DNA of 64,000 nt from an uncultured Clostridia bacterium (GTDB lineage Bacteria; Bacillota; Clostridia; Oscillospirales; Ruminococcaceae). Location: contig CANQNK010000006.1 of NCBI GenBank assembly GCA_947625195.1, positions 28,955 to 92,954 of the forward strand, read 5' to 3'. The stretch's first letter is position 1; the number at the start of each line of letters is the position of its first letter. This document shows, one piece after another, positions 1-10,253 of the stretch. Under the pieces are notes generated by a model. The model was not told the DNA's origin. It worked only from the letters and a program-made list of their open reading frames with translations, and made no database searches. Position numbers and translations under genes: made by a program.

Positions 1-822
1 AACGACAAAACAGATTTATCGTCTCTTAGTCCGGAGGACTTCCCTATTCTTTCGGATTTACTTCAAACTGTTCGAGAAAGGTTGTATGAGAAAGACGGTA
101 CCCACTATAAAGAAAATATTACCGAATCAAAGAAAACTATATACGAGCGTATAGAAGCGTGGATTAAACCTATTGCTGAAGGTATATACGCTTCAATGTT
201 TAACGGTCACAGCACTGTAAAAATCACAGACGAAAAGCTCATTGTTTTCGATGTTCAAGCTTTAGCTGAGCTTGAAGAAAACATATATAACGCTGTATTG
301 TTTCAACTGCTATCTATGATGTGGGCTGAAACCTGTGACAATGCCTACTATAATAAAGTGATAGATAAAAATTATGACAGATCGTATATTGTATCACTGA
401 TCGATGAAGCACATAGGTTTATGAGCAGCAAAAATCCTGAGTGTACCAATTTTATAGCTAAAATGACCAGACGGTCTAGGAAATATGATGCCGGACTTTG
501 GTTTGCATCGCAATCTATTACAGACTTTTTCCCTGACGGTGTATCAGACGGTACAGATACTATCCGGACGATATTCGGACTGGTACAGTACAAGCTTATT
601 TTTAAGCAGCCTCCTGAAGCTATCAATGCTCTTATTAAAGCATTTCCACAATTCACTCAATCCGAGTTAATGAGTACCGGTAATTTTATTCCGGGTGAAA
701 TGCTTATGAGCCTTGGAGGTAAACTAAAGCTCAGATGTCAGAGGTATATTTCACCGGAGGACTTCGATTATTTCGGTAATTCCCGTGATAAACGATTCGA
801 GGATGGTGATAACTATGAGTAA
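1..822 (+). CDS. VirB4/TraE-family conjugation ATPase, C-terminal part
   Basis: The frame is open from base 1 (it reads NDKTDLSSLSPEDFP...), so this is the 3' end of a gene that begins outside the window; the TTG at 82 in the ORF track is not a real start. The visible ~273 residues hold the end of the ATPase domain: a Walker B stretch SLIDEAHRF followed by the RRSRKYDAGLWFASQS segment typical of VirB4 ATPases. VirB4 hexamers power assembly of the type IV secretion channel at the inner face of the membrane. The Walker A motif would lie upstream. The stop overlaps the next start by 8 bp, indicating translational coupling. Confidence 0.88.
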   Translation, partial: NDKTDLSSLSPEDFPILSDLLQTVRERLYEKDGTHYKENITESKKTIYERIEAWIKPIAEGIYASMFNGHSTVKITDEKLIVFDVQALAELEENIYNAVLFQLLSMMWAETCDNAYYNKVIDKNYDRSYIVSLIDEAHRFMSSKNPECTNFIAKMTRRSRKYDAGLWFASQSITDFFPDGVSDGTDTIRTIFGLVQYKLIFKQPPEAINALIKAFPQFTQSELMSTGNFIPGEMLMSLGGKLKLRCQRYISPEDFDYFGNSRDKRFEDGDNYE

Positions 823-1582
823 GCTTCAGGATAAAATCAACACCTTTAGTGATAAACTTAAGGAAGATCAGAAACGCATCATATCAACAAAATCCCGTGG
901 AAAGAAGTTTTATATTGCGTTTACTGTTGTTATCGTTACCGTCTATTTATTGGCATTTACTTCAAAGCCATTTGCTATGATGCTGAGCAATAATAACAAA
1001 ACCGACATAGTAAGCGAAGATTATAATCAGACTATTTCAATTGAAGGTGAATATGATCTTAAGGTTACCAATGCCCAAATCAACAAAGCTTCTAAAGAAT
1101 TAAGATTTGACTTGCTGATAAAGCACTTTTATGAATCTTACAATATTACAAATTCTGATACTAGCTATGTTAATCGTGTTTCAAAGCCTAAAATTATCAA
1201 GGTATTATTTGACTCTGAGTCAATCGAGGATAAATCCGCTGAATACAAGATTGTTGACAATACTGAGCAAAGATTTCATAGTACAGTAACAGTCAACCTT
1301 GATGATGTGGATTTTAAGAGCTGCATCATATTATTTGAATATAAAAATCTTGCATATTCAGACGATGATACAGTTGACGAATATGGCAATATCATAAAAG
1401 GCGAAAAGCATAACAGCGAAATATGTAAATGCTACATTCGTATTAGTCGTAATGATTTTAAATCAGTCAGCAAATGGGATAATGTGGAATTTGTACAGCC
1501 TACCACAGAAGCACCGACGGAATCAACAACCGTTGCTACATCTAAGACTAGAAAGGGAGTAAAAGATGCAATTCAAGAGTAA
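815..1582 (+). CDS. Membrane-anchored conjugation-module protein, unknown function
   Basis: I chose ATG 815 (MSKLQDK) over the upstream GTG of the ORF track because it overlaps the VirB4 stop by 8 bp and has an AGGA-type ribosome binding site. The 255-aa product has a charged cytoplasmic N-terminus, one membrane segment at about residues 32-49, then a ~190-residue extracytoplasmic domain ending in a Thr/Glu/Pro-rich tail. The topology recalls VirB8-like or TcpC-like bitopic channel components, but I see no motif proving that. Position between VirB4 and the SSB genes supports a role in the transfer apparatus. Confidence 0.7.
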   Translation: MSKLQDKINTFSDKLKEDQKRIISTKSRGKKFYIAFTVVIVTVYLLAFTSKPFAMMLSNNNKTDIVSEDYNQTISIEGEYDLKVTNAQINKASKELRFDLLIKHFYESYNITNSDTSYVNRVSKPKIIKVLFDSESIEDKSAEYKIVDNTEQRFHSTVTVNLDDVDFKSCIILFEYKNLAYSDDDTVDEYGNIIKGEKHNSEICKCYIRISRNDFKSVSKWDNVEFVQPTTEAPTESTTVATSKTRKGVKDAIQE

Positions 1583-1892
1583 AACCAACGCCATAAAATT
1601 GATCGGATATGTAAACTCTTTGCCACAGATAAGTAACGCAAGTCAATACGCTATTGAGTTCAAGCTGACCGTGCCCCGACCTTGTGATAAGGGTGAACGG
1701 CAATATTATGATGTAATAAACGTCTATGTGTCCGACCATAACACAGTGCTGTTTTGTAAAAATAATCTTCAGAAAGGTCAGACAATAATCGTTAAAGGAG
1801 AACTAAGAAAGTTTAAAGAAAACAACACCTACAAGGTATGTTCTTCAGACATATCTATTCAATCATCTTATAATAACAGAGGAGGAAAATAA
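1566..1892 (+). CDS. OB-fold single-stranded-DNA-binding-like protein (short)
   Basis: A 108-aa protein starting inside the preceding gene (17-bp overlap) behind a GAAAGGGAG site. The pattern of short beta strands with GYVNSLP near the start and GQTIIVKGELRKF in the second half is that of an OB-fold SSB: strand L45 and the QKGQ.I.V.GEL motif. It lacks the acidic C-terminal tip of housekeeping SSB. It is paired with a fuller SSB directly downstream, so the two may act on the transferred strand together or as a heteromer. Family assignment rests on the motif only. Confidence 0.6.
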   Translation: MQFKSKTNAIKLIGYVNSLPQISNASQYAIEFKLTVPRPCDKGERQYYDVINVYVSDHNTVLFCKNNLQKGQTIIVKGELRKFKENNTYKVCSSDISIQSSYNNRGGK

Positions 1893-1893
1893 A

Positions 1894-2313
1894 ATGTTAA
1901 ATACAGCAACTTTTAACGGCAGATTTACTGCCAATCCAGAAATTGAGGTAGCAAAAAACGGAAAGGGATATGTCCGGTTTACGATTGCAGTTGAACGCTC
2001 GTATAAAAATAAGAATAATGAGCGCTTAACCGATTTCTTCACTTGCTTTGCTAGTGAAGTCATTGCCAAAGTCATTTGTGATCACTTTAAGAAAGGAGAC
2101 GGCATAATAGTCAGCGGTGAGATGCGAAACTCAAAGTTTACGACTAAAGAAGGTGTGGAAGTAAACACAAATATTTTACAGGTAAAAGGCTTTGATTTTC
2201 CTGTGTCACGCCCGAAAGAAAAAACTGACACCATAGCCAGAGCGTTAAGTGATGCGTCAATAGATGACTTTGAAGAAATCTTACCGGCGGCAGAATCCGA
2301 TGTTCCGTTTTGA
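1894..2313 (+). CDS. ssb: Single-stranded DNA-binding protein, element-borne
   Basis: 139 aa behind a strong GAGGAGG site, one base after the previous stop. It has the SSB start (NTATFNGRFTANPEIE), the FTIAVER strand, DFFTCFASEVIAKVI (counterpart of D(F)(I/F)xxVxWxxxAE) and KKGDGIIVSGEMR. The C-terminus ends in an acidic stretch and DVPF, matching the DIPF-type tip through which SSBs recruit partner proteins. On a conjugative element it would coat incoming single-stranded DNA and help replication and establishment. A hairpin copy lies 4 bases after the stop. Confidence 0.9.
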   Translation: MLNTATFNGRFTANPEIEVAKNGKGYVRFTIAVERSYKNKNNERLTDFFTCFASEVIAKVICDHFKKGDGIIVSGEMRNSKFTTKEGVEVNTNILQVKGFDFPVSRPKEKTDTIARALSDASIDDFEEILPAAESDVPF

Positions 2314-2316
2314 TAT

Positions 2317-2339
2317 GAGTGGGACTTTTAGTCCCACTC
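2317..2339. repeat. Element hairpin repeat, copy 1 (TTT loop)
   Basis: GAGTGGGACT-TTT-AGTCCCACTC, a perfect 10-bp stem with 3-nt loop, between ssb and the next ribosome binding site. The tract after it (TTTATTTTTAT) could allow some termination. One of four copies in this module. Confidence 0.95.
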
Positions 2340-2363
2340 TTTATTTTTATAAGGAGAAACACT

Positions 2364-2693
2364 ATGAAGATCACTGTTAGAATTAACGATGATATTGCGC
2401 AGAAACTTGATGCAGCTTTTGAAAACTATCACATAAAGTTTAAAACTAAAAACGACTTTTATAATCATATTCTGGAATCGTTTTTAAATTCTAATACTCC
2501 ATCAATATCTAATTTTTTACCGGAGATTATTAAAGCAATATGTCAAGAAACTATCAATAAAAACATAGAAGAAAATCGACTTCTTGTTAAAGAAGTTGTA
2601 AGGACTACTGAACTTGCTTGTGCTAAAATAAGCAATGTTGCAGACAGTCTCATAGACTACATTCCTCAAGAAAGTGATCTTGAGGAAACTTAA
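2364..2693 (+). CDS. Small ribbon-helix-helix-like protein
   Basis: The ORF track starts at a GTG inside the hairpin; the real start is ATG 2364, preceded by AAGGAG at 2351. The 109-aa protein opens with MKITVRINDDIAQKLDAAF followed by a helical segment, the beta-strand-then-two-helices pattern of CopG/Arc-like DNA-binding proteins. The rest is helical with no motif I recognise. Its position directly before the putative oriT suggests an accessory oriT-binding or copy-control protein; this is inference. Confidence 0.6.
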   Translation: MKITVRINDDIAQKLDAAFENYHIKFKTKNDFYNHILESFLNSNTPSISNFLPEIIKAICQETINKNIEENRLLVKEVVRTTELACAKISNVADSLIDYIPQESDLEET

Positions 2694-2699
2694 TTTTTT

Positions 2700-2940
2700 T
2701 TACTTTTTGATGTTAAATAATGTTCAACACAGTGTTTAACATTGTTAAAAAGCGGTTAAAAATTATTTAACATTGCTTGAAAAATAGCTAAAAAGTGTTT
2801 AATCCTGTTAAACACTGCCGTCATTTTTTTTGAGCGAAAGCCCAGTTTTACTGGGTTTCGCAACCGGACTGCCAGCAGTCCTTTATGCTCCTTTCTTGAG
2901 CGAAGCGAAAGAAAGAGGCAAAAAAATTTATTGGAGGTAT
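2700..2940. other. Putative origin of transfer (oriT) with repeats and hairpins
   Basis: A 250-bp gene-free stretch between two ribbon-helix-helix-like genes and upstream of the relaxase. The left half has repeated GTTTAAC/GTTAAA words, including TGTTTAACATTGTTAA and GTGTTTAATCCTGTTAAACAC. The right half has a strong hairpin GCGAAA(G)CCCAGT-TTT-ACTGGGTTTCGC (2834-2861, one bulged G), a second GGACTGC-CA-GCAGTCC (2866-2881), and a third pairing CTTTCTT with AAGAAAG (2891-2915). GAGCGAA occurs twice. Iterons plus inverted repeats just upstream of mobC and relaxase genes is the usual oriT layout. The nick site is not identified; a replication origin is an alternative. Confidence 0.6.
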
Positions 2941-2944
2941 TTTT

Positions 2945-3427
2945 ATGGAAAAAGAAAGAAAGTTTGTCGGTATAAGAATTGATTCAAATCTCAACAGCAT
3001 AATAAACAAATGTTTAGCTGCTAATAGGTACTGTTCTAACACATCAGAGCTTGTCCGATATGCAATAGTTTTTTACTCAGTTGCTACTAAGACTATCTCC
3101 TTAGAGGATGTTCCAAAGGATATAAAAGGTAGGGTCAGCTTAATGATTGATGGATTAAATTTCGGTGGCTCAATAAATAAGGCAGATAGCGAGTTTGAAA
3201 AAATATTGCAGCGCCTTGGAAAGATAACAAAGAACACTGAAATGCTTTTGGGAGTGATAAACAATATTATGTATTTTTCGCCGGAAGCATTATCAAACAA
3301 TCCCCCATCAGACACATATCAATCTCACAAAACAAGCCCGCATAACTTTTTAAAAGCAGCAGAAACCGAATATAACAAATTGACCGAGTACAGACGAATA
3401 GATCAGGCAAATAAAAATGGTGTGTAA
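2945..3427 (+). CDS. MobC-like relaxosome accessory protein
   Basis: 160 aa behind TTGGAGG. The N-terminus (KFVGIRIDSNLNSIINKC...TSELVRYAIVFYS) fits a ribbon-helix-helix DNA-binding fold; the middle and C-terminal helices contain FEKILQRLGKITKNTEMLLGVI, similar to the helical part of MobC-type proteins that bind oriT and help the relaxase open it. It lies between the putative oriT and the relaxase, as expected. No enzymatic motif is seen. A hairpin copy follows the stop by one base. Confidence 0.7.
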   Translation: MEKERKFVGIRIDSNLNSIINKCLAANRYCSNTSELVRYAIVFYSVATKTISLEDVPKDIKGRVSLMIDGLNFGGSINKADSEFEKILQRLGKITKNTEMLLGVINNIMYFSPEALSNNPPSDTYQSHKTSPHNFLKAAETEYNKLTEYRRIDQANKNGV

Positions 3428-3428
3428 T

Positions 3429-3447
3429 GTGGGACTAAAAGTCCCAT
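3429..3447. repeat. Element hairpin repeat, copy 2 (AAA loop)
   Basis: GTGGGACT-AAA-AGTCCCAT, 7 perfect base pairs plus a closing G-T pair, between the MobC-like gene and the relaxase ribosome binding site. The loop is in the opposite orientation to copy 1. Confidence 0.93.
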
Positions 3448-3466
3448 TTCAAAGGGAGGTGTTAAA

Positions 3467-6400
3467 ATGCCAGCTATTGTCTTTTTGGGGTCTTTTGACT
3501 ATTCTTGGAAAATAGGAGGATTGTGGGATTATGATGAACGTGAAGAGAAATTTGTCCAGAGAGCGTTTCAAAAAAAATATGCAGAACTGAAAAGAAAAAT
3601 TTTAGATGAAAAGGTTTATGCAAAAGAAGCAGCTAAAAAATATGATTATTACGATTATATGGCTAATGAAGAAAAATCTGTTGGTAACTTTTCGGCTACA
3701 AAAGATTTTTGTGATGACAATGACAGAACAGAATTTATAAACTTTGAAAAAAATGCTCAGTCGCTCGGACTGCCAAGATACAGAGGCGTGTGCAGTTTTG
3801 ATAATAAGTTTTTAGAAGAGAATGAGGTGCTTAACCCTCTTGGACTTATTGATCACGACAAACTGCGTGATGCAGTCAGAAAATCAATGGCAGCTATGTT
3901 TGACAAAACACAAAAGATAGATAGCGACAATGTAATATGGAGTGCTTCTATACATACAAACACCGATAATATTCATGTTCACTGGCAGTTTATTGAAAAA
4001 GAAAAGAGAAAGAAAAAAGGTGCTTTGTTCAGAGATGGTGATAAAATTGAAATTGAGGCGTTTGATAAATTCAAAACCACTATGATAAAAACGCTCACAA
4101 AACAATCGCCGTTACTGGAACTTACAAAATTCCAGAAAGATGTTTTAATTCCGTGTACTAAAGAATTGTTACAGACACCTACCGATAAGATGTTGGCGCT
4201 TAGACAACTGTTACCAAAAAACAAAAATATCTGGGAATACGGGCGAAAAGTTCTTGATGATATAAGACCTATTATTGACGAAACAGTATTATCAATAATA
4301 CGAGCTGACGAAAAATCGCTTGCCAATTATTATCAGTTTCAAGATCGTCTGTCTGAAATTCGCCAAAAGTATGTTGAGTGGTTTGGTGACGGTTTCGGAC
4401 ATATAACCTATGTTGACAAGAAAAGCGGCGAAGTAATTACAAAATTCAGCGCTAGGACAAATATCCCACTTAGAATGTATAACAATTATGCTTTTGCTCT
4501 GAAAAAAGAATTAGGCAACGCCCTTCTAAAGCATATGAGAAATTTACCGGATGAAAGTTTTCATTCTGATAACAAAAAACTTGCTACATTAAACATTGAG
4601 TTATATCATATGCCTATTAACGATGCTGACATAGATGTTGATACAAATACTATTGATGATATTACCTCAGATTCCTTTAATATCAAAACTGATAAGGTAA
4701 AAATCAATTTGCCTGAAATGAATCTGCACACAGTAGACTTTCGCGATGAGAATTATACAACCGCAAAAGAGTTTATCAGAAAATCTCAAAATGCAAAGAA
4801 AGAAGATGATGAAAAACGATCTCTTTTTGAATCTGCGATAAGATGTTACAGCAAATCAGCTGAGAATGGCAATATAGTTTCTGCATTACAACTTGCAAAG
4901 TATTATAAGCACGGTCACAAGTATTTAGAACAAAACGAGGAGTATGGTGATTTGATATATTCATCTTGCTATTACGCTATATCCAGTTTACTATTATTAT
5001 CTAAGGACACACCTAAATTTGAATTTCTTAATGATTGGTGTTCTTATAGGATCGGAATGCTGCTTCAAAACGGTGACGGCATAACCAAAGATGATAAGGA
5101 AGCTTTGAATATGTTTTTATCAAACAATTCGTCTATGTGTCGTTACGCAGCAGCAAGTATTTATTATCGTGGGACTGAACACATTGACAAATCATATATC
5201 AAAGCTTTGGATTTATTAAAAGATGTGAATGATAACCCGTATGCGTCTATGATCAAGGGAAACATTTATACATACGGAGATCAATTATTACAGCCAGATT
5301 CTTTCAAAGCTAAGGAGGAGTACAGTAATGCTCTACGATTATTCCTTGAGATAAAGGATAAATCAGAGTACGATAATTATAATATCGGCAAAATCTACTA
5401 TAAAGGCTTAAGCGGTGAAAAGAATATTGATTTGGCTGTTGAATATCTGCAGAAAGCTGAACAGGAAAACAATGTAGATGCTACTGAACTACTCGGCAGC
5501 ATTTTTCTTTTTGAACCATTATACGAAAATTATAGGGCTAAGGGCATTGAGCTAATGCTAAAAGCCAAACAACAAAAGAGCAAAAGCGCTGCTTTTGAAC
5601 TTGGAAAATATTATTTACAAATTGGCAACATAGAAAGCGCTGTAGATAATCTAATGTATGCGTCTGTTACAGATAATAACATAAACGCACAGTATAAACT
5701 GGGTAAGCTTTTATACGAACAGAACGATACTTTACAGGCAAAAACTTACCTTACGATGGCGGCAAACCAAAACAACAGTTACGCAGAATACTTACTCGGT
5801 AAAATTGCACTTGGCGAAAGCGACTACCCTACTGCCGAGGCATTGTTTTTGAAATCCGCATTACATGATAACGATAATGCTATGTATGCTCTTGGCAAAA
5901 TGTATTTACAACAAGGCGAAGAATCAAAAGCTGTCAAATGGCTTACCATATCTGCTAACAAGAATAACAACAAATTTGCTCAGTATGCACTCGGTAAATA
6001 CTATGCTGATAACGGGATTATAGAGTGTGGTAAAGAGTATCTGTTGCGATCAGCAGATAACGGTTTCTCAACTGCATTGTACAAGTTAGCGTTAATCGAA
6101 AATAGGAAACAAAACTACCCCGATGCTATTTACTATCTTACACAATATCTTAAGTCAAATCCGGATAATAAAGACAACGGTACTTCTTTACACATACTTG
6201 GCAAGTTGTATATAAAGGTCAAAGATTATGATAAAGCTTCTGCTTGTCTTACTATGTCAATAGCTGACGGTTGTAAAGAAGCCAGATATACACTCGGAAA
6301 GTTGTATACTCAGAAGGATCACTTCTTCCCTTCCCTAGCGTTACCCCTGCTTAAACAATCTGCTGATGAGGATAACAATACTCACGCACAAATGACACTT

Positions 6401-6679
6401 GGTCTGCTTTACCTGAATTACTTTCACAATCCTGTGCTCGCAAAAAAATATATTGATAAAGCTTATGAAAACAGATTAAGTAAAAAACAATACATTGGAA
6501 AACGCTTCAAACCTCGTTCCCATATAGTTAATGCCTCTGCATTGTCAATAGCCAGGCGGGTCAGAATTGTCGCTGAAATTCAAACACAGAAGCTTATAAA
6601 TGAATTTGAGCGAACATTTAACGAAAATGTCGAACGGCGAAAATGGGAAAACGAACACAATCAAACAATATCAATTTAG
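3467..6679 (+). CDS. MobL/MobP-type relaxase with long Sel1/TPR repeat tail
   Basis: 1070 aa behind AAAGGGAGG. The N-terminal ~200 residues are a relaxase: the motif HTNTDNIHVHW at residues 163-173 supplies the histidine triad (H163, H170, H172) that holds the metal, and VCSFDNKFL precedes it as in MobL proteins. It would nick oriT and lead the strand through the channel. A helical linker follows, then from about residue 430 to 1010 a series of at least ten Sel1/TPR-like repeats with cores such as LGKIYYKG, LGKLLYEQ, LGKIALGE, LGKMYLQQ and LGKLYTQK. The repeat tail replaces the usual primase or helicase extension and is probably a protein-binding scaffold. Confidence 0.85.
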   Translation: MPAIVFLGSFDYSWKIGGLWDYDEREEKFVQRAFQKKYAELKRKILDEKVYAKEAAKKYDYYDYMANEEKSVGNFSATKDFCDDNDRTEFINFEKNAQSLGLPRYRGVCSFDNKFLEENEVLNPLGLIDHDKLRDAVRKSMAAMFDKTQKIDSDNVIWSASIHTNTDNIHVHWQFIEKEKRKKKGALFRDGDKIEIEAFDKFKTTMIKTLTKQSPLLELTKFQKDVLIPCTKELLQTPTDKMLALRQLLPKNKNIWEYGRKVLDDIRPIIDETVLSIIRADEKSLANYYQFQDRLSEIRQKYVEWFGDGFGHITYVDKKSGEVITKFSARTNIPLRMYNNYAFALKKELGNALLKHMRNLPDESFHSDNKKLATLNIELYHMPINDADIDVDTNTIDDITSDSFNIKTDKVKINLPEMNLHTVDFRDENYTTAKEFIRKSQNAKKEDDEKRSLFESAIRCYSKSAENGNIVSALQLAKYYKHGHKYLEQNEEYGDLIYSSCYYAISSLLLLSKDTPKFEFLNDWCSYRIGMLLQNGDGITKDDKEALNMFLSNNSSMCRYAAASIYYRGTEHIDKSYIKALDLLKDVNDNPYASMIKGNIYTYGDQLLQPDSFKAKEEYSNALRLFLEIKDKSEYDNYNIGKIYYKGLSGEKNIDLAVEYLQKAEQENNVDATELLGSIFLFEPLYENYRAKGIELMLKAKQQKSKSAAFELGKYYLQIGNIESAVDNLMYASVTDNNINAQYKLGKLLYEQNDTLQAKTYLTMAANQNNSYAEYLLGKIALGESDYPTAEALFLKSALHDNDNAMYALGKMYLQQGEESKAVKWLTISANKNNNKFAQYALGKYYADNGIIECGKEYLLRSADNGFSTALYKLALIENRKQNYPDAIYYLTQYLKSNPDNKDNGTSLHILGKLYIKVKDYDKASACLTMSIADGCKEARYTLGKLYTQKDHFFPSLALPLLKQSADEDNNTHAQMTLGLLYLNYFHNPVLAKKYIDKAYENRLSKKQYIGKRFKPRSHIVNASALSIARRVRIVAEIQTQKLINEFERTFNENVERRKWENEHNQTISI

Positions 6680-6697
6680 TGGGACTTTTAGTCCCAC
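6679..6697. repeat. Element hairpin repeat, copy 3 (TTT loop)
   Basis: GTGGGACT-TTT-AGTCCCAC, perfect 8-bp stem. The G of the relaxase TAG stop codon is the first base of the stem; the coupling-protein ribosome binding site lies 10 bases after it. Confidence 0.95.
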
Positions 6698-6719
6698 ATA
6701 TTTTTATGGAGGTAAAATT

Positions 6720-9515
6720 ATGAAGAAAATTTTTGATAGTCTACGAAAAAAAATTACACACTCAGCAAAAACAATTTTACTGTTTGCTTTTATGTTTTTA
6801 CTTGCCTGGGTTACTCTGTCATTTTTAACTAACTTTGTTACAGACTTGTGGCGCTGCATCGGAATTGGAAGCCTTGCAACATTAGCACCAATCACTATTT
6901 CAACCTTTTTTGTTCCAAAGAAATCCGTTATTATTCATCTTTGTCTTGTCTTTATTATTGCTTTTGCTATTACACTTCGTGTTCAAATGATCAAACGCAG
7001 CAAAAACAAAGACATAATGGGAGCTGAGCGTACAGGAAAGCCGTCTGATTTTATTGACCAGCCTCATGTTCGTAAGGTGGATGAAAGGCACTTGGAAAAT
7101 GCTGAAAATATGGGATTAGTTCTTGCAAGGTACGGACATATATTATACTATGATACATCCACAACAAATGTATTGTGTATTGGCTCTACTCGTTCAGGCA
7201 AGACACAGTATTTTATTCTGCAAACTATTCACAATATTATTCATTCAAAGGACAAACAACATCTGGTTATCAACGATCCAAAAGGCGAAATATTCGCTAA
7301 CACTTACAACTCTTTGAAGAAACAAGGATATACAGTACACACCCTAAATCTTAGAGACACTAATATGTCCGAACTCTGGAATGCTTTTCAAAACATCATT
7401 GATGATTATGTAGAAATGAGAAAATCTAATTCTGACGATCTCAGCAGAATAAACACTAAGATAGCAACATTGACATTACTGTTTACCTATAACGACAAAT
7501 CTGATCCTATCTGGCCGCAATCAGCTCAGTCGCTTTTTAAAGCTATCATTCTTCTTTTACTTGAAATAGGATACGATAACAATGAACTTGATAAGCTTAA
7601 TCTGTATAGCTTATACACATTCTTCATTGAATTTGTAGGACACGAGGAAAAATGGAAGACAACGCCCGGAGACGCTAACTTCACGACACACAAGGCTTTG
7701 ACCGAGTTGTTTGAGGCTCTGCCTGCCGGATCAGCAGCTAAGAACGCTTACGGAACTGTAAAACTGGCATCCGGTGAAATGCTTACATCAATACTTGCAA
7801 CGCTATCGTCAAATATCTCACTATTCGGAGAAGATGTTGGAATACAAAAGGTAACCTCCGGAAACGAAATCAATCTCAAGGAATTGCTTTCTGATGATAA
7901 ACCTTGTGCGATCTTCTTGATTGTTCCTGACGATAATCCATCAAGACACAGTTTAGCGTCTCTTTTTGTTACACAGTGCTATGAGGTTTTAGTAGATCAT
8001 ACATCAAACTACAAGCTATGCCCGGAACGTAAACTTAAAAAACGAGTGAATTTCATCCTTGATGAGTTTGGAAATATGCCTGTTATTCCTAATTTTGGAA
8101 ACATTATCACTGTTTGTTTAGGAAGGAATATATTGTTTTACCTCGCTGTCCAATCATTATCGCAGATTGAGACTAAGTATGGACAAAGTGCTGCAACTAT
8201 TACATCAAACTGCGGCAACATTGTATATGTTTATACTAATGATCAGGGCACAAACGAACATATGTCAAATATGCTGGGTCAGATGACCGGTGAATACGAA
8301 ACATATAACGGTGCGCTAACCGCATTTATGTTTGAGCAGCGTCATCAGAATTACACCGGACGAGCTATTAAGACAGCTGCCGAACTCGGCAGAATGGATA
8401 CAGGGTACTTATTGGTAAAGCCGCAGCGTATGTACGGATTTATTACTAAGTTTGAACCGTTTTACAAAAAGCATCTTCCCGAAAAAAGTGTTGAAGCTAT
8501 TTATCCGGAACGCCATATTATTCTTAAAGACACGCTGTTTAATCTTTGGTATGGTTGGGATATATTCTTTAAACGAAAGTTAAAGCTCGATTATAACTCA
8601 ACCGAAGATACGATAGCAGATGAAATTATAAATGTCAAAAAGGAATTAGGACTTCCTTTTAAAAGAAAGCTTATTCCTGCCGATACAATAATCATTTATG
8701 TTTTGACAATAAAAGATATTTACTCGGAAATTACTCCGGAGCGTGCAAAAAAGAAGCTGATTATTCTTGACGGCAAATACAACAAAATCATTGAAACCAC
8801 TATAAACGATATAATGCTGAGCGAGGATGAGAATGTATCACAATGTAACGAAATCAAAAAAATCATATCCCGGTACACAGATTTGATATTTTTTAACCGT
8901 CAGGCTGTAAGTCTTGTGGCTGCACTTATTCTTAATGAAGTTACAGAAAGTCAGAATATAGTCTCTATTTTTGATGATAACCGAGTTTATGAGTATTCAA
9001 ATCCCAGAAACCTTACAGTAGATAACATCTGTAAACAGTTTAATGCGAATCCGGATAATGATATTGAAGCAGCTCAGGCACTATTGGCATTTACATTTGC
9101 AATGAACGATATGCCTGATGAAGCAAATAAATGTCCGGCTATTACTGCTAATGATGATGAATCAGAAAACGGAGAAGAGTTTGCTGCTCCTCGTGATTTT
9201 GTCCCAACGGATTTGCAAAACGGCGCTGATGAGGACAGCGATCCTCTGGCGTCGCCTAAAGCTAATCGTGTTATTCCTAAATCAAATATCACTGTAAACA
9301 ACATTGATGTTTTGTTGTATTTGATTGCAACCAAGACCGAGAACGAAATATACAATTTAATTGAGGTCGGTTCTGAAGTTCAGGCAATAAATCTTATTTA
9401 CACTACTGCTAAAAGACTGGATACTATCACACCGGATGAAAGCAACCTATTAGTAAAATACATTACTAAAACTATCAGAGAAAGGAGAATAAATACTAAT
9501 GAAAATAAGAAGTAA
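6720..9515 (+). CDS. VirD4/TraG-type coupling protein
   Basis: Start placed at ATG 6720 (GGAGG at 6708) rather than the upstream ATG in the relaxase. The 931-aa protein has two N-terminal membrane segments (about 17-40 and 60-88), Walker A GSTRSGKT at 155-162, the NDPKGE motif near 185, Walker B FILDEFGNM near 445-453 and the TSNCGN...GQMTGEYE segment typical of TraG/VirD4. It would carry the relaxase-DNA complex to the secretion channel. Family members are often near 600 aa; the extra ~270 C-terminal residues here are acidic and unrecognised and may bind the relaxase tail. Confidence 0.92.
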   Translation: MKKIFDSLRKKITHSAKTILLFAFMFLLAWVTLSFLTNFVTDLWRCIGIGSLATLAPITISTFFVPKKSVIIHLCLVFIIAFAITLRVQMIKRSKNKDIMGAERTGKPSDFIDQPHVRKVDERHLENAENMGLVLARYGHILYYDTSTTNVLCIGSTRSGKTQYFILQTIHNIIHSKDKQHLVINDPKGEIFANTYNSLKKQGYTVHTLNLRDTNMSELWNAFQNIIDDYVEMRKSNSDDLSRINTKIATLTLLFTYNDKSDPIWPQSAQSLFKAIILLLLEIGYDNNELDKLNLYSLYTFFIEFVGHEEKWKTTPGDANFTTHKALTELFEALPAGSAAKNAYGTVKLASGEMLTSILATLSSNISLFGEDVGIQKVTSGNEINLKELLSDDKPCAIFLIVPDDNPSRHSLASLFVTQCYEVLVDHTSNYKLCPERKLKKRVNFILDEFGNMPVIPNFGNIITVCLGRNILFYLAVQSLSQIETKYGQSAATITSNCGNIVYVYTNDQGTNEHMSNMLGQMTGEYETYNGALTAFMFEQRHQNYTGRAIKTAAELGRMDTGYLLVKPQRMYGFITKFEPFYKKHLPEKSVEAIYPERHIILKDTLFNLWYGWDIFFKRKLKLDYNSTEDTIADEIINVKKELGLPFKRKLIPADTIIIYVLTIKDIYSEITPERAKKKLIILDGKYNKIIETTINDIMLSEDENVSQCNEIKKIISRYTDLIFFNRQAVSLVAALILNEVTESQNIVSIFDDNRVYEYSNPRNLTVDNICKQFNANPDNDIEAAQALLAFTFAMNDMPDEANKCPAITANDDESENGEEFAAPRDFVPTDLQNGADEDSDPLASPKANRVIPKSNITVNNIDVLLYLIATKTENEIYNLIEVGSEVQAINLIYTTAKRLDTITPDESNLLVKYITKTIRERRINTNENKK

Positions 9516-10029
9516 AACTAAAAAGCTTATTTGCTTTGCAGTCTGTATGTTACTGTTTTTAGGACTATGTTTATCTTTTGTATTTATGAATGTCTCGTCA
9601 TTATCATCGTATTTGTTTTTGGCATTCTTAATACTGTTATTTTTGGGCGCATATTTTGTTAATAGGTACATTATGAATTCTGACACACTACCAGTCTTAA
9701 AATTCAAGGACGATATTTTAAAAATTGTTTCTTTTGATGCCAAAGTTAAGACAGTATTCAGAATTTACTATGAGGACATAATAACAGCAATGATCAACCA
9801 AAAAGGTTGTTTAGTTGTTATATTTAAAAGTGGTGGCAAATCAAATTGTATCTGCATAAAAAATGGCTCTGCAAAAGAAAAAATCACCCATTCTTATGTC
9901 TCTCCACCTATTCCGCCTGACTCTGAGTTAGCAAATTATATAGTCGATAACAAGTTTTATGAGATCACATTGTCTAAACGGTATTACAAGAAATATACAA
10001 AGGTACTTAAAAAGAAGAAGTGGGACTAA
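9499..10029 (+). CDS. Small membrane protein with PH-like domain
   Basis: 176 aa; starts 17 bp inside the coupling-protein gene behind AAAGGAG. Two adjacent membrane segments (about residues 8-30 and 34-53) are followed by a short soluble domain (VLKFKDDILKIVS...RIYYEDIITAMIN) resembling the bacterial PH/YcxB-like fold found after paired helices. Function unknown. The last two codons (TGG GAC) and the stop TAA lie inside hairpin copy 4, so the repeat has been co-opted as the gene end. Confidence 0.6.
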   Translation: MKIRSKTKKLICFAVCMLLFLGLCLSFVFMNVSSLSSYLFLAFLILLFLGAYFVNRYIMNSDTLPVLKFKDDILKIVSFDAKVKTVFRIYYEDIITAMINQKGCLVVIFKSGGKSNCICIKNGSAKEKITHSYVSPPIPPDSELANYIVDNKFYEITLSKRYYKKYTKVLKKKKWD

Positions 10030-10040
10030 AAGTCCCACTT
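10018..10040. repeat. Element hairpin repeat, copy 4 (AAA loop)
   Basis: AAGTGGGACT-AAA-AGTCCCACTT, perfect 10-bp stem. It encodes the final Trp-Asp-stop of the preceding gene and is followed by TTGTTTTG. Last feature attributable to the element. Confidence 0.95.

Positions 10041-10161: not shown

Positions 10162-10253
<92 letters not shown>

Follow-up and report, generated by a model that had tools for sequence, protein, structure and literature searches.

The ParB-family protein KorB of plasmid RK2/RP4 (IncP-1) binds palindromic OB operators outside parAB, with long-range control of replication and transfer genes and a role in stable inheritance (PMC11790492). In plasmid NAH7 (IncP-9), ParB binds six dispersed inverted repeats, parS1-6, and activates transfer genes (PMC12421886). 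These repeats occupy intergenic positions in the plasmid backbone, with one of them upstream of a transfer gene (PMC12421886). For ICEs, BisD from ICEclc (Pseudomonas putida) is described as a ParB-fold protein which regulates genes via CTP-dependent clamps (PMC12704722).

The locus considered here is part of an ICE from an uncultured Clostridia bacterium (genome G000). The window, which is the whole stretch of 64,000 nt that was analyzed, corresponds to contig C6:28955-92954 and begins within the transfer region of the ICE.

The palindrome in the transfer module

The features at the beginning of the window are as follows (window coordinates).

1..822, + strand: VirB4-type ATPase gene, 3' part (AAA_10); the gene start is outside the window, at C6:27317
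1566..1892, + strand: SSB-family gene (PF00436)
1894..2313, + strand: second SSB-family gene (PF00436)
2317..2339 (core 2319-2337), no strand: palindrome copy 1, GAGTGGGACT-TTT-AGTCCCACTC; 5 bp past the stop of the second SSB gene; identical in G013
2364..2693, + strand: small gene that separates copies 1 and 2; without a family match
2945..3427, + strand: 160-aa gene directly before the relaxase gene; no family match
3429..3447, no strand: palindrome copy 2, GTGGGACT-AAA-AGTCCCAT; immediately upstream of the relaxase gene
3467..6679, + strand: MobL/MobP2-type relaxase gene with Sel1/TPR repeats (PF18555, E 1.2e-46; MobP2 model score below cut-off)
6679..6697, no strand: palindrome copy 3, GTGGGACT-TTT-AGTCCCAC; shares bases with the relaxase stop codon and precedes the coupling-protein gene
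6720..9515, + strand: VirD4-type coupling protein gene (PF02534, PF12696)
9499..10029, + strand: 176-aa gene, the last of the ICE; its final codons are within copy 4
10018..10040 (core 10020-10038), no strand: palindrome copy 4, AAGTGGGACT-AAA-AGTCCCACTT; covers the end of the last ICE gene
10162..10250, + strand: tRNA-Ser(TGA), end of the element; a 67-bp repeat of this tRNA flanks the sister ICE in G013

At gathering scores, Rfam returned tRNAs and nothing else. The pattern GTGGGACT-NNN-AGTCCCAC has four matches (2319-2337, 3429-3447, 6679-6697, and 10020-10038), the second with one mismatch (final base T), and there is no further match in the 64,000 nt when up to three mismatches are allowed. 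Shuffled windows contained 0.11 matches on average, and four copies were found in 0 of 100 shuffles. The first-pass annotation, which had described four copies of one hairpin at these places and nowhere else in the window, is thus confirmed on both points. It had also described copies that touch stop codons, and indeed all four are intergenic or touch a stop codon, copy 3 being on the relaxase stop and copy 4 representing the final Trp-Asp-stop codons of the 176-aa gene.

Two of its generalizations require qualification. The set of four is real within the window but is only part of the 10 copies (up to two mismatches) in the G000 genome. Placement at the 3' end of a gene applies to all four window copies but not to those of the sister elements in G013 and G001, where one copy lies 11 bp behind a promoter-like TTGCAA-17-TATAAT and where, for some copies, the nearest gene is 100-300 bp or more away. 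A proposed alternation of TTT and AAA loops is refuted by the comparison of orthologous copies. The loop of copy 4 is AAA in G000 versus TTT in G013, with identical left flanks; of the copies upstream of parA in the three elements, two have TTT and one has TTA, and TTA also occurs in other copies. In the G013 orthologue of copy 2, a base is missing from the right arm. Because the stem, but not the loop, is mostly conserved between orthologous copies of the three elements, we consider the alternation a coincidence, and flips of the center would be expected for palindromic DNA. The general form of the palindrome is AGTGGGACT-n-AGTCCCACT, odd-centered and with about 10 copies per element.

The position of these copies might suggest intrinsic terminators, attenuators, or mRNA-end stabilizers, that is, RNA hairpins between the genes of an operon. 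Most copies of the window element are at most 10 bp behind a stop codon, and, with a folding energy of -10 to -16 kcal/mol, the RNA hairpin is stable. A simple terminator scan is passed by copies 1 and 3 on the plus strand and by copy 4 on the minus strand only; copy 2 fails. T tracts, described as weak in the first-pass annotation, vary between copies, and T-rich sequence follows only some of them. The copy right behind the promoter-like site in G013 and G001 argues against termination. An mRNA processing or stability element, which had also been suggested, found no positive support.

Extent of the ICE and distribution of the palindrome

Every one of the 10 copies in G000 is within one ICE. 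Seven are on C6 (2865 to 38992) and three on C23 (347, 2167, 3441), where they adjoin parA, parB, and an integrase gene. In G000, parB is thus on a different contig from the transfer module, and the link between them comes through G013, which has its ICE on a single contig (about C7:52.2-100.7 kb) with a full tRNA-Ser on one side and the 67-bp tRNA repeat on the other. Because the G013 element lies on one contig, C6 and C23 are very probably two parts of one ICE. The copies (10 in G000, 11 in G013) are dispersed across nearly 50 kb, with four of them within the transfer module; the element in G001 has seven.

Two sites deserve a separate description. The left-most copy in G013 (C7:52074-52092; L029:7074-7092) is located just outside the full tRNA-Ser at the left end of the ICE; its left flank resembles the parA-upstream region, and it may be left over from a previous ICE at this site. 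In the leader of a 1400-aa surface-protein gene (G000 C6:2865-2970, G013 C7:63469-63576), a palindrome directly follows a TATAAA box, and further on is a short ORF (AGGAGTATGAAGATGTTTAA...) that has an inverted repeat of its own (AAGATGT...ACATCTT). This is a possible leader-peptide or attenuator region.

Twelve further genomes of the genus, which are devoid of the ICE, have no copies of the palindrome. When 85,462 species genomes were scanned for the exact palindrome with an A/T center, matches were obtained in these Clostridia MAGs, and in the Clostridia sequences L038 and L043; three further hits, in unrelated bacteria, look like chance matches. A near-identical palindrome, AAGTGGGACTTnAAGTCCCACTT, occurs four times within 1.6 kb in L043 (4470-6019; JAQXZA010000041.1), three of the four directly after the stops of small genes, by an HTH_26 gene and an endonuclease-domain gene. 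L038 (7246-7264; CANQPS010000003.1) has a single copy near an HTH gene similar to that of L043. The surrounding genes in L043 and L038 differ from those of the window ICE.

Copies scattered all over the host genome would point to a motif independent of the element; in three genomes (G000, G013, G001) they are confined to it, so that an element-bound motif is not refuted. This bears on the possibility of a selfish repeat (REP- or MITE-like) that multiplied within the ICE; a spreading repeat was also among the options of the first-pass annotation. Numerous near-identical copies are what such a repeat would produce, and one copy in G000 is missing from G013 and G001. However, this indel shows neither a clean insertion scar nor a target duplication, no copies were found beyond the element, including the host chromosome, and copies are at orthologous places across elements. 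Equivalent places in five other ICEs are occupied by a different repeat (see below). We consider a spreading repeat extremely unlikely.

ParA and ParB of the ICE

The ICE encodes adjacent ParA (CbiA/AAA_31) and ParB (ParB_N) proteins, with all assignments above cut-off. ParB has 311 aa, carries the ParB N-domain (PF02195), and matches the structure chains of Spo0J and Noc by sequence. The NCBIfam model parB_part, which represents the N-domain and part of the HTH, gives 55.0 bits, just below its cut-off of 58.45, and the alignment to Spo0J covers the HTH. An AlphaFold model of ParB with two sequences was discarded (mean pLDDT 33). The parAB genes are bordered by palindromes, one 28 bp before parA and one 8 bp after parB.

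Among viral contigs, no relatives of this ParB were found. The relative on the R. albus plasmid pRUMAL01 was informative, while other plasmid-borne relatives are distant.

Homologous ICEs carry other palindromes

In the regions around ParB relatives, recurring palindromes with the same arms were counted, with no motif given beforehand. The closest relatives are flanked by dispersed identical palindromes, with a sequence unlike that of the window ICE.

G183: TGTGTCA-3-TGACACA
G130: TGTGCCACGTGGCACA
G234: TCGGACA-3-TGTCCGA
G245: TGTCGCCAnTGGCGACA, 3 copies
R. albus plasmid pRUMAL01: TGTGTCACGCGTGACACA, 4 copies

A search with VirB4 instead recovered G183, G130, and G234, plus G273, G376, and G044. 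G321 was left out because of too short contigs. G273 and G376, picked by VirB4 and not via a motif, both have parAB and a palindrome of their own: ACTGCCC-3-GGGCAGT in G273 (five copies, one on the parB stop and one upstream of parA), and sites of the CTTCGGGMACTnAGTKCCCGAAG type in G376 (four plus a fifth, shorter site, next to two ParB-like genes). In G044, a ParA gene is accompanied by only two exact and two near palindrome copies. Separate parAB genes and a dispersed palindrome particular to the element are present in each of five ICEs homologous to that of the window (VirB4 identity 25-37%), with few or no further copies in the rest of the genome: TGTGTCAnnnTGACACA (11 copies), TGTGCCACGTGGCACA (10), TCGGACAnnnTGTCCGA (7), ACTGCCCnnnGGGCAGT (5), and CTTCGGGMACTnAGTKCCCGAAG (4).

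Genome-wide, these palindromes keep to the element entirely or almost so: all 11 copies in G183 are on two contigs that bear parB and transfer genes, the 10 copies in G130 are on two contigs, and 5 of 5 in G273 are in the element; of those in G234, five belong to the ICE and two lie apart from it, at about 27 kb and about 250 kb. The search for the motif in the whole element and in related ICEs, which had been proposed earlier, led to copies confined to the element and to related ICEs with palindromes of their own. Site positions recur across lineages though the palindrome sequence differs. A palindrome precedes parA in most cases (window element, G183, G234, G273, G216, and R. albus), and in the window element as well as in G183 and G273 one also sits immediately before the relaxase gene.

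These ICEs also bear on the interpretation as RNA hairpins. Copies are found within genes, namely in parB of G234 and G376 and in another gene of G376, and most copies in G130, G234, and G273 have no T tract. An RBS often follows a copy immediately. Copies inside genes and missing T tracts point to an action of the palindrome as DNA. Neither uniformity within an element nor replacement as a set in homologous ICEs is needed for terminators, and genuine T-tailed hairpins of a different sequence occur beside the palindromes of G273. We thus consider it unlikely that the copies are terminators, attenuators, or stabilizers, while some may double as weak terminators.

Further observations concern individual elements. 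In G273 (L172; compare L054/L088, G234), T-tailed hairpins (AAGCCTGTAA...TTACAGGCTT) adjoin several palindromes, which looks like a terminator, then a ParB site, before the next gene. G376 has two ParB-like genes and two palindrome variants, CGGGCACT and CGGGAACT, in one ICE (C1, about 1104387-1107774; L167), perhaps two ParB-site pairs within one element. More than 100 short palindromes (CGCTCCC, 5-base spacer) form a tandem array with a period of about 67 bases in L079 (G183 C4:47208-54269); this array is CRISPR-array-like and 24 kb from the ParB of the G183 ICE.

Controls and correlation with ParB

No palindrome with three or more copies was found in 11 conjugative regions from more distant VirB4 lineages without ParB. 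None of 22 chromosomal stretches of 20 kb had four or more palindrome copies (one had three), and shuffled elements never had more than one. Lineage and ParB are confounded, since possession of ParB and palindromes coincides with the closest kinship by VirB4.

Half-site similarity among ten ParBs rises with the identity of their HTH domains (rho 0.43-0.51, permutation p 0.005 or less) when a register shift of 1-2 bp is allowed, sites being odd- or even-centered across elements; the correlation vanishes at zero shift. N-domain identity of the ten ParBs is uncorrelated with half-site similarity. Because the HTH correlation needs the shift, fails without it, and involves only ten ParBs, we treat it as supporting evidence only.

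The palindromes as putative ParB sites

The palindrome is uniform within an element and is swapped as a set between elements, which calls for a factor that changes along with it; ParB is the candidate that is present each time. Judging from sequence comparison, we consider it quite probable that the palindrome is a parS/KorB-operator-type site of the ParB from the same ICE, for partition and/or regulation. Among the options of the first-pass annotation, a protein-binding site is thus favored, with sites near transfer genes, but as a DNA palindrome for ParB rather than an RNA hairpin. Two observations do not fit easily: L043 has four copies of a near-same palindrome on a contig on which no ParB was found, and many distant ParB regions are without a repeated palindrome. 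Most ParB regions of more distant relationship, some of which possibly represent chromosomal ParB/Noc, have no palindrome that is repeated three or more times; G199 has six copies of a TAGCGGA palindrome, which are packed into 2 kb at a distance of about 13 kb from its ParB and were not counted as dispersed.

The palindrome could instead be the site of another protein of the element, for example the HTH_36 replication-type protein or the integrase. The element does encode an HTH_36 protein, and proteins of some related ICEs have similar N-termini. It is parAB, however, that recurs as the neighbor of the palindrome, including the R. albus plasmid, G245, and G216, palindromes of such type are known ParB ligands, and the half-site is tracked by the HTH similarity of ParB (ten ParBs, with the 1-2 bp shift). 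A site for another protein is thus considered very improbable.

If the palindromes are ParB sites, a ParB dimer would bind both half-sites through its helix-turn-helix, like other ParBs, and may load there as a clamp that slides. Copies by parAB would take part in the partition of the excised or replicating circle and in (auto)regulation of parAB, and through the copies between transfer genes and at two surface-protein promoters ParB would tune transcription, either as a repressor (as KorB) or as an activator (as NAH7 ParB). A wider scenario, which we put forward tentatively and with considerable doubt, is that in this ICE family ParB partitions the element and exerts long-range gene control via about 10 dispersed sites, and that the palindrome changed together with the DNA-binding domain of ParB in each lineage, so that several ICEs could share a cell without cross-talk, as with private address codes.

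If correct, integrated elements of gut Clostridia would bear a ParB network of the kind known from plasmids, with inheritance and transfer coupled to each other, and the matched pairs of ParB and palindrome would be a natural data set for changes of ParB specificity. The palindromes also offer an easy means of detecting such ICEs in draft assemblies, connecting their contigs, and setting their limits; in the present case, two contigs of one element were joined in this way.

Comparison with known systems

In the sopC region of the F plasmid, the sites for SopB form a clustered tandem array. The sopC half-site TGGGACC resembles TGGGACT of the window ICE, but a clustered array differs from dispersed sites and a resemblance over six bases is no evidence of kinship.

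RK2 KorB is similar in being a ParB-family protein with palindromic sites outside parAB. It differs in that RK2 is a plasmid of Proteobacteria, its OB operators are unlike the present palindrome in sequence, and KorB works with KorA. NAH7 shares dispersed palindromes, one of them upstream of a transfer gene; it is a Pseudomonas plasmid with an even-centered site of 18 bp (TTTCTCGCATGCGAGAAA), whereas the clostridial ICE has about 10 odd-centered sites, mostly right after stops. BisD, likened here by its description, is a ParB-fold regulator on an ICE.

The statement in the first-pass annotation that it knew of no such system described was too strong, as KorB-OB of RK2 and ParB-parS of NAH7 have the same design (PMC11790492, PMC12421886). 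An earlier description of such a dispersed ParB system in clostridial ICEs was not found in the literature searched, which is weak evidence of absence. The proposed working principle is known from RK2 KorB and NAH7 ParB; what would be new is the host group, the type of element, and the lineage-specific palindrome.
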